From contig CAJVGD010000001.1 in NCBI GenBank assembly GCA_910890315.1, positions 1,178,001-1,242,000 of the forward strand: a DNA stretch of 64,000 nt, given 5' to 3'. The stretch's first letter is position 1. Every line of letters begins with the position of its first letter. Shown in pieces: positions 46,351 through 59,555 of this stretch. Under the pieces are notes generated by a model that worked only from the letters and a program-made list of their open reading frames with translations, was not told the origin of the DNA and made no database searches. Position numbers and translations under genes: made by a program. Origin of the DNA: Serendipita indica DSM 11827 (Eukaryota; Basidiomycota; Agaricomycetes; Sebacinales; Serendipitaceae).

Positions 46351-49300
46351 ATGAGACAATATATCTCTGTTCTACGTTCATGGAGCGGCATACCGTCTTT
46401 TCTTTCTGCTCTCAGCCCATGGAGCGGCGCAGTGCCGGCTACAGAGCCCGAATCAAAGCTAAACTATCTCGGATTCCGAGAAATGGCCCCTGGAATCGAT
46501 CCTGTTGTCGAGTAAGTTACTCTGCTGCTATACGTGCTCACCGCTGAGCGCATCTCTGTAGTATTGTCGCGATCCATGGCCTCCAAGGACACAGAGACAA
46601 GACGTGGACGTCGGATAATGGGGTTTGTTGGCTGCGTGATCTCTTGCCTTCCGACTTTCCCAATGCCCGAATCCTAAGCTATGGGTATGATGCCGACGTT
46701 CACAGTCGGGAATGTGTATCCACTCAGACAATCGGTCGACATGCTCAAGGATTGATCGATGCACTCTCAAGGAAACGGGAAGACAGTCCTCGGGTGAGTT
46801 TGCATACAATGTTTGGGCACTATCTTAGTAATGACTAGCGCCCTATTATTTTCATCGCACATGATATAGGAGGCATCATTCTCAAACGAGTTCGTAACGC
46901 TAAACTCTCAAGATCGTCTCTGACATCGCCCTCTTGTAGGCACTTGTTATCTCCCACAACCAAAGCCTGGAATCAAAAAGTCGCCTCCGGGATGTTCTAG
47001 TATCCACATGTGCAGTTTTGTTTTTTGGGACTCCACACTTTGGCGTCGAAGGCACTACTTTCGCGGAAATCAATCCCAGGTCGTCGCTGCACATGAAAAC
47101 GACAGACGCTATTCTCAAAGATCTTCAATTCCATTCAACAGAGCTCGAGAACATACAGAACGACTGGCTTGTAGCGAGCGAAAGGATAAAAAGCATATTT
47201 TTCTCCGAAGATTATCCAGTATCCGATGAGCGAAATGAAGGAGTGTTTGTGAGTTATCTTCTACTTTACGATTATTTCTTGACAAGACGATAGAATGTCC
47301 CGCATCCTCTGGCTGTGATTCCCGGCGACCGCAACGCGACAACAATTATTCTTCATGCAAACCACCGCAACCTGGTTCGGTTCTCATCCAGAGAGAACGA
47401 CAATTATCAGACAGTCCACTTCTATCTCAAAGGCTGTGTCAGTAATGGGCCTGAGAGAATACGCAAGAATTGGGTAAGGGAGGATAATTGTCGCAGTTTG
47501 TAGTCATTCCATTGTCTTTACTTGGCTGATCAGAATGTAGATGCGGCGCAGGGAGGACCCACGCTCGAAATCCCTAACAACTGTAAGACCAAGAACCGCT
47601 TATGGAGATGCTTGCTAATTGCTTCCAGTCGACAAAACTACCATATTACAACTTCCATCGGTGGCATTCGCTCCATCCTCAGTCCACAAAGCCTGTCTAC
47701 CAGGAACGCGCCGGGCTGTTCTTGAGACGATCTCACATTGGGCAGAGAACGACACACCAAATAAGCCAATCTTCTGGCTGTGCGATATTGCAGGTGCCGG
47801 AAAATCTACTGTCGCAATGTCCGCAATGGAATCGTGGCAGAAGCAGGGAGTCCTAGGTGGCCGATTCTTCTTCTCTATGTCGAGCAACGACGCATCTACC
47901 ACCGAGAAACTATGCTCGACCATAGCAAGGGACCTTGTTCAATACATCCCCGAGCTCGCACCGCACGTTTCTCGGGCCGTGACGCAAAATCCCTCTATCA
48001 TGCGAGGATCCCTTGATGAGCAGTTCCAAACACTTGTCACTGGTCCCCTCCAACACCGACAAGGGCGCGTTATTCTAGTCATTGACGCAGTAGACGAATG
48101 CACGTCTGCATCACAGCGCAAACAACTCCTCGAGACTCTGTCCACCGCCGTCCAAGGATGCAAGAATCTCAGAATATTCATGACTAGTCGTCCAGACCCA
48201 GTCATCGAAACCGTTTTGGGATCGCTCTCGATCAAATCAAAGTTGGAGGACCGTCTTCACAGCGTCCGTCATCGCGATAATATCGATGACGTCGCGATCT
48301 ATGTGGGCCAAACACTAGATGGAGTGCTATCAAAGGACAAGATACAGCGACTGGTTGAAAAAGCCAATGGTTTATTCATCTGGGCAAGCACTGCCTGTCG
48401 AATGCTCACAGATGAAGCCACTCTTAACTCCCCCGACAGTCTATATGACCGCTTGATCTCATTGGATCAACGTGGAGCTATAGACAAGGTATATGACCTC
48501 ATCTTCGAGCGAATAGATGAGGAATCCCATCCAGTGTTGTGTCAAATGCTCGCTTTGCTTCTCGTAGCGTTCGAGCCACTCACGTTCGACGACATGGAGC
48601 ACCTGGTAAAGCATACAAGAGTCCCTGGAACTGTCAAGGGCTTGCTCAAGAACTTAGGAAGCGTACTCAGTACAGAGCCAGGTACAAATTTGATCCATTT
48701 TCGCCATCTTACCCTCGTCGAGTATCTTCAACGGTGCTCCAATTTCCCAGCCGGCGGAAGCCATAAGAGAATATCTCTTGACGTCATCAATGCGCATGGT
48801 CAAGCTGCTTCGTGGTGTCTTCAACACCTCAAGTCGCGGACCGATGGACTCAAGTTCAACATATGTCAACTCGAGTCATCTTTCTACCTCAATAAGCAGA
48901 TCCCAGATCTTGATATCAGAATATCCAAATTCATTCCAAGAAGACTTCAATATGCCAGCTCGCATTGGTTGTTCCATGTGTTAGGAATGGACGACAAGAA
49001 GCCGTGCCCGCTGGAGGACGATGTTGGGTACATCCTTCGAAGCCCACAAGTGCTATATTGGATGGAGGTTCTCAGCTTCACGAGAAGCGTGCCACGAGCA
49101 ATTGACGGTCTGCGCGCGCTCTCAGATAACATGGCAGTGAGTATTCTAGCCTACTGGTACCAGCGGCTGAGATGACATTTAGCTCGGAGAAGAGATAAGA
49201 TGGCGCATCAATGATACCCTAAGGTGTTTGATAGCGTTTTTGGTGCCAATTCAGGACAGCGCTCCACATATTTACATCTCAGCGCTTCCGTTTATGCCCA

Positions 49301-51479
49301 AAAAGTCTATTCTACGGATTGAAGGTCTAGGCAAGAATAGTGAGACTTTGAGGGTGACTCAAGGCCTTGAGGAGGCGTATCCTGGGTTCCCTGACAGTTT
49401 ACGAGGTCACAGCGACTCGGTTTGGGCCGTCGCATTCTCGCCAGACGGCTCACGAATCGTCTCTGGCTCGAGCGACCAGACAATTCGACTTTGGGACGCA
49501 AAGACTGGTGAGCCGGTAGGAGAGCCACTCCGAGGCCACAGCGACTCGGTTTTGGCCGTCGCATTCTCGCCAGACGGCTCACGAATCGTCTCTGGCTCTC
49601 ACGACGACACAATTCGACTTTGGGACGCAAAGACTGGTGAGCCGGTAGGAGAGCCACTCCGAGGCCACAGCAACTCGGTTTTGGCCGTCGCATTCTCGCC
49701 AGACGGCTCACGAATCGTCTCTGGCTCTCACGACGACACAATTCGACTTTGGGACGCAAAGACTGGTGAGCCGGTAGGAGAGCCACTCCGAGGCCACAGC
49801 AACTCGGTTTTGGCCGTCGCATTCTCGCCAGACGGCTCACGAATCGTCTCTGGCTCTCACGACGACACAATTCGACTTTGGGACGCAAAGACTGGTGAGC
49901 CGGTAGGAGAGCCACTCCGAGGCCACAGCGACTCGGTTTGGGCCGTCGCATTCTCGCCAGACGGCTCACGAATCGTCTCTGGCTCGAGGGACCACACAAT
50001 TCGACTTTGGGACGCAAAGACTGGTGAGCCGGTAGGAGAGCCACTCCGAGGCCACAGCAACTCGGTTTGGGCCGTCGCATTCTCGCCAGACGGCTCACGA
50101 ATCGTCTCTGGCTCGAGCGACCAGACAATTCGACTTTGGGACGCAAAGACTGGTGAGCCGGTAGGAGAGCCACTCCGAGGCCACAGCAACTCGGTTTTGG
50201 CCGTCGCATTCTCGCCAGACGGCTCACGAATCGTCTCTGGCTCTCACGACGACACAATTCGACTTTGGGACGCAAAGACTGGTGAGCCGGTAGGAGAGCC
50301 ACTCCGAGGCCACAGCAACTCGGTTTTGGCCGTCGCATTCTCGCCAGACGGCTCACGAATCGTCTCTGGCTCGAGCGACCAGACAATTCGACTTTGGGAC
50401 GCAAAGACTGGTGAGCCGGTAGGAGAGCCACTCCGAGGCCACAGCGACTCGGTTTTGGCCGTCGCATTCTCGCCAGACGGCTCACGAATCGTCTCTGGCT
50501 CTTTGGACCAGACAATTCGACTTTGGGACGCAAAGACTGGTGAGCCGGTAGGAGAGCCACTCCGAGGCCACAGCGACTCGGTTTGGGCCGTCGCATTCTC
50601 GCCAGACGGCTCACGAATCGTCTCTGGCTCGAGCGACCAGACAATTCGACTTTGGGACGCAAAGACTGGTGAGCCGGTAGGAGAGCCACTCCGAGGCCAC
50701 AGCAAGTCGGTTTTGGCCGTCGCATTCTCGCCAGACGGCTCACGAATCGTCTCTGGCTCGAGCGACGACACAATTCGACTTTGGGACGCAAAGACTGGTG
50801 AGCCGGTAGGAGAGCCACTCCGAGGCCACAGCAACTCGGTTTGGGCCGTCGCATTCTCGCCAGACGGCTCACGAATCGTCTCTGGCTCGAGCGACCAGAC
50901 AATTCGACTTTGGGACGCAAAGACTGGTGAGCCGGTAGGAGAGCCACTCCGAGGCCACAGCGACCCGGTTTTGGCCGTCGCATTCTCGCCAGACGGCTCA
51001 CGAATCGTCTCTGGCTCTCACGACGACACAATTCGACTTTGGGACGCAAAGACTGGTGAGCCGGTAGGAGAGCCACTCCGAGGCCACAGCGACTCGGTTT
51101 TGGCCGTCGCATTCTCGCCAGACGGCTCACGAATCGTCTCTGGCTCGAGGACCAGACAATTCGACTTTGGGACGCAAAGACTGGTGAGCCAGTAGGAGAG
51201 CCACTCCGAGGCCACAGCCGCTCCGTCACCGCCGTCACAATCTCTCAAGGCGGCTCACAATTAGTCTCTGGTTCTGAAGGCAACACCGTTCGCCTTTGGG
51301 ATACGGATATTGTTGTACCGTCAAAGCATTTATTCCAACCTCGTGTCGATCAGGACAACGCTACCGCGTCCTCGCCGGAGAATTTAGGAATCATATCTGG
51401 CTCAACGAGTGACATGGGTGCACTCTTTCCAGAAGCATTTGGTCTGTATCGTCTGTGCATGCTGCCGATTTCAATGTGA
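46351..51479 (+). CDS. NOD-like receptor: hydrolase-like domain, NACHT, WD40 repeats
   Basis: STAND-type protein of the NLR class used in fungal heterokaryon incompatibility and innate sensing. Exons 46351-46511, 46562-46793, 46839-46889, 46940-47248, 47294-47473, 47534-47582, 47629-49136 and 49183 onward, phases consistent. The N-terminus is a SesB-like alpha/beta-hydrolase-type domain ('[16 protein letters not shown]', '[11 protein letters not shown]', 'FFGTPHFG'), with Asp where the nucleophile Ser of GHSxGG is expected. The NACHT domain has P-loop '[10 protein letters not shown]' and Walker B '[11 protein letters not shown]'. From 49402 run WD40 repeats of exactly 43 residues. In repeat 14 one base is missing near 51149, so the product ends at 51195; the old frame continues through a divergent 15th repeat to 51479. 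Confidence 0.85.
49402..51230 (+). repeat. 129 bp tandem repeat encoding WD40 units
   Basis: Fourteen near-identical 129 bp units, followed by a diverged fifteenth, each coding for one WD40 blade ('[15 protein letters not shown]', '[20 protein letters not shown]'). Differences between units gather at a few codons: the residue after 'GHS' (D, N or K), the residue after 'SV' (W or L), and the triplet after 'VSGS' (SDQ, HDD, RDH, LDQ, SDD). The rest is almost invariant at nucleotide level. Confidence 0.95.
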
Positions 51480-56936: not shown

Positions 56937-59555
56937 ATGCACTCGGTTTCTGATCTCACAACGTTCGCCCGGCGAACGACGGGAGATGTTCCACCTCCGC
57001 TCGTGGTGAGCAGAATAGAATGAAACAGGTGTCTACACATTGATTGCTAATAATTATACGCTTGCAGGGCGCATCTACCACCGTCGTCGGCGACAAGATG
57101 TACCTTTTTGTAAGTTTAAACGCTCTCTATTCCCCTAACCTGGCTGATAATATGGATGGATAGGGTGGAAGACTCGTTTCTCTCCGCAAAATGGTGTCAG
57201 ACATGTACGAATTCAACCTCAAGGCGCACGTTTGGACCAAAATCGAGCCCAAACCCGACGAAGAAGTTCCGGGACCCCGTTATTTTCACAGTGCAGACGC
57301 TTGTGAGTGTTCGGTGACCCAAACTCTGTATCCCTTTTTCCGGGAGAGCCGCCCTTTCAAGAGCACTCTCCGACCCCGGGTCCCGTTCTCACCGATTCAT
57401 AACTGTGCTGACGGGACCGTGTCTTTCACAGGGAATGATCATCTTGTAATATTCGGCGGTATGGGATATACCGACTCTGCATCCGACGAACTATGCGTAC
57501 TCTCGGATGTGCGCGTCTTTTCGCTCTCGACCCTCTCGTGGCTCCCGCCTACACCCGTGCAGACTGCGTCTGCCGAAGAGTCGATTGACGGAACAGAAGT
57601 TCCGCCTCCACGCGCTCGCTACGCGCATCTATCCTCCATCACCTCGTCGCGTCTCTTCATCATCGGAGGCCAAAACCTGTCCAATGACTGGTTGGATGAC
57701 ATTCACGTCTACGACCTGCCGTCCAAGACGTGGGTAATGTGGAAACCTTACCCTCGCCATTGCGGGACCTATCGAAGTGTGGCCGTCTGCGCCCAAAAAC
57801 GGGTGCGCAATCCATCCGAAGAGATGCGTGCCACTCTTGCGAATCATGCTGGCGGTTCAGGAGGGATTGGTGGTGGCATGTCGATGAATGGCACAAGCAG
57901 TCCGCCACCACAAGGTTACCCGTTCCTAGGCCCTGTGGGTGCACGCTTTGCCCCAGAACGCACGGTCAACTCGAATGCGTTGATGCCGAGGACAAACCAT
58001 GGGGATACTGCACCCGATGGTCCCACCCCAACCCGTGAACTCGTCCATTTGCCCTACTCGTGCGACCCGACGGAAAACTTTCCAAACGACGTATTTCTCT
58101 ACTCTAATTACAACGTGAGTGGCTTTTCCAAATTTTGACTCGCCGCGTCTATTTCGCGCCTTGGCGCATATTTTTCTACCCACGCTTTGGTTCGCTTTTC
58201 CCATCAACTGTTGCCCGCTGGCTATAGGGGATGCTCATCTCCCTCCGCGCTTATTCGCATTTATGCGACTGGGAATTTCGAATATTGACGGATCCATAGT
58301 TCACCGACGTTCGGAGAGAGCTCGAGGTCCTTACCCCGTTACCGAACCATGATTTCGCAGTCGACGACCGGTCGAACCTTATGACAGGCAATTCGCTGCC
58401 CCCCGGTCTGCGATTCCCGACCGGTGCGATACTAGGTCACCACCTCGTGATTGCGGGGACATATCTCGCCCACTCGTATCAAAGTTTTTCCATTTGGGCA
58501 CTCGACTTGGTCAGCATGACTTGGTCTCGAATTGACCCTGGAGCTACGCTTGCGAGCGGATCATGGTCGCGAGGTGTGCTGTGGGAGAATGCAAACAAGT
58601 TTCTCATCTTTGGAAATAAGGATGGAAACCTTGTTGAAGATTACAATCGGCGCCTTCTTTCGTGGGATCACATTGCGTATATTGATTTGGAAGCCTTTGG
58701 GATCTACCAGCCACCCGAGTTGGCTCTCAGTCTTGCTGCCCAAGAACTGGGTCTGGCAGCGCTCGAGGAGGGAACCATGGCAGACTTTGAGCTCGTGTGT
58801 GATGATGGACGTCGGATCAGTTGCTCGAGACGACTGCTCGAGAACCGGTGGCCTTGGTTCAGGGATCGCAGAAAGGAGTTTGTAGATGCCGTCACGAGAG
58901 CGATGGAGGCCATGCCGAATGGTGGAAAGGCGACTGGAGATGTGGCATTGCCCAAACTTCCTGGCACACTCGCGGATATCGACAAAGAGTATGGTCGACC
59001 TGACCCGCGATTGACGCCTCGTGCGTTTCATCTCTCGGAGCCTTATCCGGTCACGCTCGCGTTTTTGCAGTGGATGTACGCGCAGGCGATCATCACCCGT
59101 CTGCAGCACACGCCACCCGTGTTGAGCGCTCTCCTCTTGTTGGCGACGACCTATCGGTTGGATCTGCTGGAGAAGCAAGTTCGACATGCGATGCATCGGT
59201 CGTTGAATGCTGCAACGTCGGTCGGCGTGTATGAAGTGGCTACGCTCTGCGATAGTCAGAGCTTGCAGATTCGCGCACTCAAGGTGGTCATGGTGAGTAT
59301 ACATGTTCATTGCACTTACGAGAGTGTCTGATCGGCATGATCTAGTCGTCGAGTCGTCAGCGATCCAATAATCGCCCTCGCCATCAAGGTGGACCCTCTG
59401 GCAGCGGTGGAATGAATGGGCCGTCGGATGATACAGGTGCTAGACCGCGTGGCATGTCTGATGCGCCAAACATGAGAAGGCCTGGTGAACCACAACGGGG
59501 CCCGTCTGGCTCTGGCTATACCTCTGCCCCTCAGACTGGACCAACAGCAAGTTAG
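56937..59555 (+). CDS. Kelch-repeat protein with BTB-like domain
   Basis: Exons 56937-57005, 57068-57109, 57164-57302, 57432-58114, 58300-59292 and 59346-59555 give 711 residues. Kelch-type beta-propeller motifs are spread over the first ~450 residues: 'GASTTVVGDKMYLFGG', 'DHLVIFGGMGY', 'SRLFIIGGQNLSNDWLDDIH' and 'LVIAGTYLAHSYQSF'. A BTB-like region follows ('MADFELVCDDGRRISCSRRL', 'FLQWMYAQAIIT'), then a Gly/Arg/Ser-rich tail. The Kelch plus BTB order recalls fission yeast Ral2, a Ras1 activator; that link is by domain order only. The stop at 59553-59555 overlaps a possible donor (GTTAGC), and the long frame behind it may be the rest of the same protein. Confidence 0.8.

Follow-up and report, generated by a model that had tools for sequence, protein, structure and literature searches.

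The window, i.e. the whole stretch of 64,000 nucleotides of Serendipita indica DNA analyzed here (GC content 51.4%), carries a predicted gene that by its domain composition is a fungal NLR, with an N-terminal SesB-like/DUF676 domain followed by NACHT and WD40 repeats, and that belongs to a large family of immune-type receptors in fungi. We consider it likely that turnover of repeats and exchange between paralogs keep its WD40 array uniform, and that five codons in each unit, which form the presumed target-facing face of the propeller, are under selection for change. The best reading of the gene would be a fungal recognition receptor of the NWD kind, in which this face may bind a variable target, and binding could free the NACHT ATPase to oligomerize and thereby gather the N-terminal domains. 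As in Podospora, the combination of concerted evolution and diversifying selection appears supported by the repeat sequences.

Architecture of the gene

The gene is predicted to consist of eight exons with GT-AG introns, which join into a single frame on the forward strand from 46351 to a stop codon at 51193-51195 and encode, as assembled, 1476 residues. Its parts, together with the repeat sequence downstream of the stop codon, are as follows:

46351-46511, 46562-46793, 46839-46889, 46940-47248, 47294-47473 and 47534-47582, forward strand: exons 1-6 (predicted; spliced open frame, GT-AG introns)
46351-47582, forward strand: N-terminal alpha/beta-hydrolase-like (DUF676/SesB-like) domain with the elbow AHDIGG (Pfam DUF676, 21.6 bits)
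47629-49136, forward strand: exon 7, NACHT (NPHP3_N/NACHT) domain and linker (predicted; Pfam match, low dN/dS)
49137-49254, forward strand: GT-AG intron preceding the WD40 exon (predicted; frame continuity)
49255-51195, forward strand: exon 8 as assembled, linker and WD40 array up to the frameshift stop (predicted)
49402-51078, forward strand: thirteen near-identical 129-bp WD40 units (variable codons 5, 6, 8, 24 and 26)
51079-51206, forward strand: unit 14, 128 bp, codon 24 without one base (stop 51193-51195)
51207-51335, forward strand: degenerate fifteenth WD40 unit (Pfam WD40, 34.6 bits; frame differs from the upstream array as assembled)
51336-51479, forward strand: C-terminal tail, which continues the frame of unit 15 (from sequence; stop 51477-51479)

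In Pfam searches, exon 7 matched NPHP3_N with 93.5 bits (cut-off 24.8) and NACHT with 48.3 bits (cut-off 26.7), and the WD40 repeats, reported as 14 stretches, belong to the same gene as the NACHT domain by the splice-consistent frame of the eight exons. The N-terminus lies narrowly above the cut-off for DUF676 (21.6 vs. 20.3 bits), which was the sole Pfam report there at E-values up to 0.01, and a HET domain was not found at this end. Downstream of the NLR gene, a Kelch-repeat protein gene split over two ORFs is located at 57191-59331 on the forward strand.

SesB-like/DUF676 hydrolases usually carry their nucleophile serine in an elbow of the form H-S-x-G-G. The elbow of the window gene (46839-46889) reads AHDIGG, and among 21 distinct genes with a readable elbow the serine position is occupied by Asp in 10, by Asn in 11 and by Ser in none. 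Five of these genes came from a scan of the window and loci L039-L076, where no elbow was seen in the other loci, and the others from 20 short stretches chosen from domain matches, 17 of which gave an elbow, one of them in a gene already counted. The genes with an Asp or Asn elbow are the window gene and those at L040, L043, L045, L049, L102-L110, L112-L116, L119 and L120; for the N-terminal domain as such, at least 191 matching exons were counted genome-wide, with some genes contributing two of them. These elbows suggest that the domain works without a serine nucleophile, hence it probably signals by clustering or binding and not as a serine hydrolase. Among the matches listed in our literature search, none linked the catalytic serine with SesB or a fungal NLR, and SesB-like domains are described as almost missing from basidiomycete NLRs in the available text of PMC9815663, which counts against the proposed reading of the gene.

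Variable codons in a uniform array

TRF places the array at 49402-51301 with a period of 129. Units start at 49402 and every 129 bp thereafter through unit 14, and the fourteen units end at 51206. The first-pass annotation had described fourteen units of 129 bp, which is correct for units 1-13, whereas unit 14 measures 128 bp and is broken in frame: the loss of one base at codon 24 shifts the frame, which ends 15 residues past the VSGS of this unit. Among the 13 full units, exactly five of the 43 codons vary in amino acid, namely codon 5 (D in six units, N in six, K in one), codon 6 (S in 12, P in one), codon 8 (W in five, L in eight), codon 24 (S in six, H in five, R and L in one each) and codon 26 (Q in six, D in six, H in one), and these are the very sites for which variation had been noted before, i.e. 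D/N/K after GHS, W/L after SV with a single change of S to P, and the triplet after VSGS. Silent differences are few, as had likewise been observed, and occur at codon 2 of unit 1, at codon 23 (TCG/TCT, 7:6, the choice being linked to the codon-24 type) and as CCA at codon 38 of unit 14, and the mean pairwise nucleotide difference among the 13 units is 0.036. Counted as steps, nine non-silent changes fall on the five codons and none on the other 38, which have two silent steps, so that the non-silent steps are clustered and their distribution is not chance-like. In pairwise terms, pN/pS is 0.306/0.033 at the five codons, a ratio of about 9 with few silent sites behind it, and 0.000/0.022 elsewhere. 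The entire array is also spanned by a 643-codon antisense ORF (49307-51238, reverse strand), which is probably a by-product of the 129-bp period keeping the frames regular.

A model of units 1-7 is confident (pLDDT 95.4, pTM 0.90), and among PDB entries seven-bladed WRAP-T proteins match its fold best (TM 0.91 and 0.93). It places residues 5 and 6 in the d-a loop, residues 24 and 26 in the b-c turn and residue 8 as the second residue of strand a, so that all five lie on one face of the propeller, as had been proposed from sequence, and the loops of the opposite face (positions 13-17 and 33-37) are invariant in the 13 full units. The variable face is presumed to be the target-facing top of the beta-propellers; residues at positions 6, 8 and 24 would also correspond to those used by the arginine-peptide site of WDR5. 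The loops bearing the variable residues are those placed atop the HET-E propeller in the available text of PMC1805685. A model of all 14 units (646 residues) is weak (pLDDT 70.5, pTM 0.51), and the choice between one 14-blade ring and two propellers was set aside for this reason.

Selection at the same codons in other arrays

The genome searched comprises 24.7 Mb in 55 contigs, from which 12 arrays of the 129-bp type, the one in the window included, were picked from near the top of the match list as a part of all existing arrays. They gave 170 unit rows, degenerate and false end rows included, of which 122 were kept because they were 129 nt long, in phase and >80% identical to the array consensus; C40c retained 2 of its 15 rows by this filter. 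Codons 5, 6, 8, 24 and 26 were defined from the window array and then applied to all 12 arrays.

At these five codons 143 non-silent and 12 silent steps were found, vs. 116 and 111 at the other 38 codons (Fisher p about 7e-19), these figures being codon counts rather than site models, in which recombination and multi-base codon changes are ignored. The five codons hold ranks one to five by non-silent steps, and in the seven high-identity arrays the ratio of non-silent to silent steps is 72:4 at the five codons vs. 30:33 elsewhere. Diversifying selection, put forward earlier for the variable codons, is thus in agreement with the site-wise counts for the window array and the pooled arrays. By pairwise count the signal is weak in C40a, C40b and C2, where pS nearly equals pN at the five codons (pN/pS 0.371/0.353, 0.286/0.246 and 0.369/0.291, respectively). 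C40d, in which the NACHT exon is broken, has a pN of 0.333 and a pS of 0.071 at the five codons, and 0.004 and 0.040 at the rest; as its codons follow the pattern of the other arrays, the pattern does not require that every gene be under selection at present.

Homogenization within arrays and movement between loci

Third positions outside the five codons have a divergence of 0.00 within the window array and of 0.05-0.25 to the other 11 arrays. Judged by the sequence outside the five codons, the nearest neighbor of a unit lies in the same array alone for 72 of the 122 units; for 32 units there is a tie with a different array, and for 18 the neighbor is found outside the unit's own array, hence homogenization is strong but incomplete. 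The five-residue combinations behave differently from the rest of the unit: nine kinds occur in the 13 window units and 103 kinds in all 122 units, and two of the 103 kinds are common to more than one array. The NACHT exons of the window gene and of C40a differ by a dS of 0.19 only, yet the five-residue combinations of the arrays are almost private. The paralogous arrays of this one genome also vary in unit number.

The NACHT exon search scored 86 of 318 candidates; counting the exon itself, the genome holds at least 86 such places, with 59-100% identity. Three loci on C40 with arrays are mosaics, in which the 600-820 bp adjoining the array are 82-99.7% like the window clade (the values of 82-85% being confined to comparison windows that span the switch), whereas farther upstream other paralogs match best, at 71-79% (30 of the 86 NACHT places compared). 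In all three the NACHT exon is broken into frames:

C40:2106107-2110517: mosaic locus with broken NACHT exon (L019, L027)
C40:2068500-2072600: mosaic locus with broken NACHT exon (L069)
C40:2117000-2121000: mosaic locus with broken NACHT exon (L070)

These loci indicate that array and flank move between loci, pseudogenes included. The concerted evolution that the first-pass annotation had proposed is therefore seen both in silent sites that are homogenized within the window array and not between arrays, and in array-flanking DNA that has moved between loci.

Frame-breaking indels and the integrity of the gene

Deviations in unit length are not peculiar to unit 14. Of 153 unit-to-unit segments in arrays of the 129-bp type, 23 are off-length (unit 14 of the window array included), and for 19 of these 23 the interval of the indel lies within or is bounded by nucleotides 11-24 and 69-78, about one fifth of the unit, although in four of the 19, all in C40c, the interval stretches from one zone to the other. 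The position of one indel in C10b is ambiguous. Two indels in C10a and another in C10c were placed elsewhere by pairwise alignment, the segment-length analysis giving them wide intervals. In C40e and C14, where the units have diverged further, none of the 26 segments deviates.

WD40 arrays with near-identical repeats also occur in a second type, with units of 126 bp, LWDGTTGASLGTLEGHT, which is found at L001-L008 (C27, C10, C35, C4 and C7). On these five contigs the arrays lie no more than about 10 kb from contig ends, and no TTAGGG runs were seen near them in the five stretches inspected. In five arrays of this type 17 of 57 segments deviate, of which 15 are frame-breaking and all touch the same zones, and two are in-frame six-base duplications beside codon 24. 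Over both types, 34 of 38 frame-breaking indels of one or two bases fall at the hypervariable zones. The arrays that bear indels are:

129-bp type: window 51079-51206, L031, L038, L024, L019, L069, L075 and L076
126-bp type: L001-L006 and L008

Sequencing error in homopolymers was rejected as their source, as the runs CTTTGGGACG and GCAAAGAC in the units of the window array and C40a-d are free of indels in the alignments. We think it probable that the indels, and only these, are an assembly effect, which would be produced at places of disagreement between the reads of two nuclei or of neighboring units; the substitutions would then be real, and the reading of the gene as a recognition receptor is compatible with this. 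Besides the concentration of the indels at zones that differ between units, it is favored by the state of the genes, since 85 of the 86 NACHT places are without an internal stop and real indels would leave 13 of the 14 high-identity arrays broken, and by the species, which is described as a heterokaryon in which SNPs number 2.6 per kb (PMC3192844, available text). Hence most of the indels are probably consensus errors. A one-base deletion in a het-d repeat of Podospora is similarly judged a likely misassembly in the available text of PMC12222747. However, SNPs of the heterokaryon are expected in NACHT exons too, where no such indels occur. Moreover, if a polymorphic base had been dropped or doubled, the indel should be explicable as such, and 17 of 19 cases passed this test, but indels placed at random in these zones do so in 83% (deletions) and 73% (insertions) of cases in the main group, so that the two sources were not separated, and unit 14 of the window gene and one C18 case (2 of 19) do not fit a one-indel model as cut. 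It is very doubtful, in turn, that the frame-breaking indels are real and stem from mutation or repair directed at the codons of target contact, in which case a mutational process would generate diversity there, beyond its maintenance by selection. The indel pattern is a warning that NLR repeat arrays assembled from heterokaryons may contain errors at just those codons that are informative.

If the indels are consensus errors, the truncation of the window gene is doubtful as well. Taken as real, the missing base and the stop in unit 14 would mean a decaying gene that has lost its last blades and whose array is a recent amplification with relaxed selection on the loops. This we regard as unlikely, although the truncation as assembled counts against a functional receptor, such arrays are also present at three sister loci whose NACHT exons are broken, and PMC9218822 (available text) documents repetitive propellers that are disrupted. 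The NACHT exon is open and constrained, its dN/dS being 0.15 with one and 0.28 with the other of the two paralogs nearest to it, the eight predicted exons remain in frame up to the array, and relaxed selection predicts variation in the loops of the other face, which are unchanged throughout the full units.

Comparison with known systems

The face that varies in the window array also varies in bacteria, where four high-identity arrays (core identity >0.70) are most variable at positions 6, 24, 8, 2, 5, 26 and 4. These four (L078-L081) were drawn from 24 loci fetched, of which 18 had runs of fewer than four units by the search pattern and two (L084 and L094) failed the D25 mark; the search pattern anchors positions 7 and 9-15, which look conserved by construction. 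Variation at this face hence marks diversifying WD40 surfaces at large. The drift of WD40 surfaces, by which any recently amplified array would diversify on its top face without recognition being implied, is nevertheless improbable as an explanation of the window array, since all nine of its non-silent steps fall on the five codons and none in other loops, its ratio of pN to pS there is high, if based on few silent sites, and its host gene is a NACHT receptor. Unlike the HET-type NWD proteins with which the first-pass annotation had compared the locus, the window gene has a DUF676/SesB-like N-terminus, and a pattern of variation shared with bacteria is not specific to HET-type incompatibility.

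WRAP-type repetitive propellers (PDB 2ymu; WRAP-T designs) resemble the window gene in their near-identical WD40 blades, and 2ymu is the best PDB sequence match (E 4e-247). They differ from it in being bacterial or designed; 2ymu comes from Nostoc, and the crystallized chain is not known to include a NACHT domain. Apaf-1, which ranked second when the weak model of 14 units was compared by Foldseek, shares a nucleotide-binding switch with WD40 repeats, which form two propellers, but unlike the window gene it has diverged blades, a CARD effector and a fixed ligand.

For Piriformospora indica, 99 NWD ORFs and 274 NLRs have been counted, among them one SesB-like/NACHT/WD40 protein with the same architecture as the window gene (PMC3192844, PMC4986451). 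A phosphate-transporter exon elsewhere in the genome (L121) matches a PDB chain named Phosphate transporter over residues 2-253, differing from it at no site other than the two ends of the exon; this structure is that of PiPT of P. indica. As far as their available text goes, this repertoire was described by counts and architectures and without a site-wise analysis of the window array, and no site-wise study of WD40 repeats in S. indica was found in the literature searched.

Uniform repeats with a few hypervariable contact codons are already known from Podospora anserina, whose HNWD genes (het-d, het-e and het-r) likewise combine NACHT with near-identical WD40 repeats. The strongly selected codons 7, 9, 25 and 27 described for them correspond to codons 6, 8, 24 and 26 of the window array, the offset being taken from residue pairs in the papers and a HET-E repeat, with a conserved V and D between. 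Codon 5 corresponds to position 11 of the seven Podospora positions (10, 11, 12, 14, 30, 32 and 39) given in the available text of PMC12222747, so that all five variable codons fall among these seven, in line with the correspondence to known NWD proteins suggested at first. Exchange between loci, pseudogene arrays included, is also described for Podospora HNWD (PMC1805685, PMC12222747 and PMC2873952, available text). The window gene differs from these in its 43-residue unit, in the DUF676-like N-terminus instead of HET and in its basidiomycete origin. The Podospora picture is hence extended to a basidiomycete root endophyte with many parallel, comparable arrays in one genome, and if such receptors recognize microbes, plant signals or other individuals, the table of five codons per unit would be a compact readout of their specificity.
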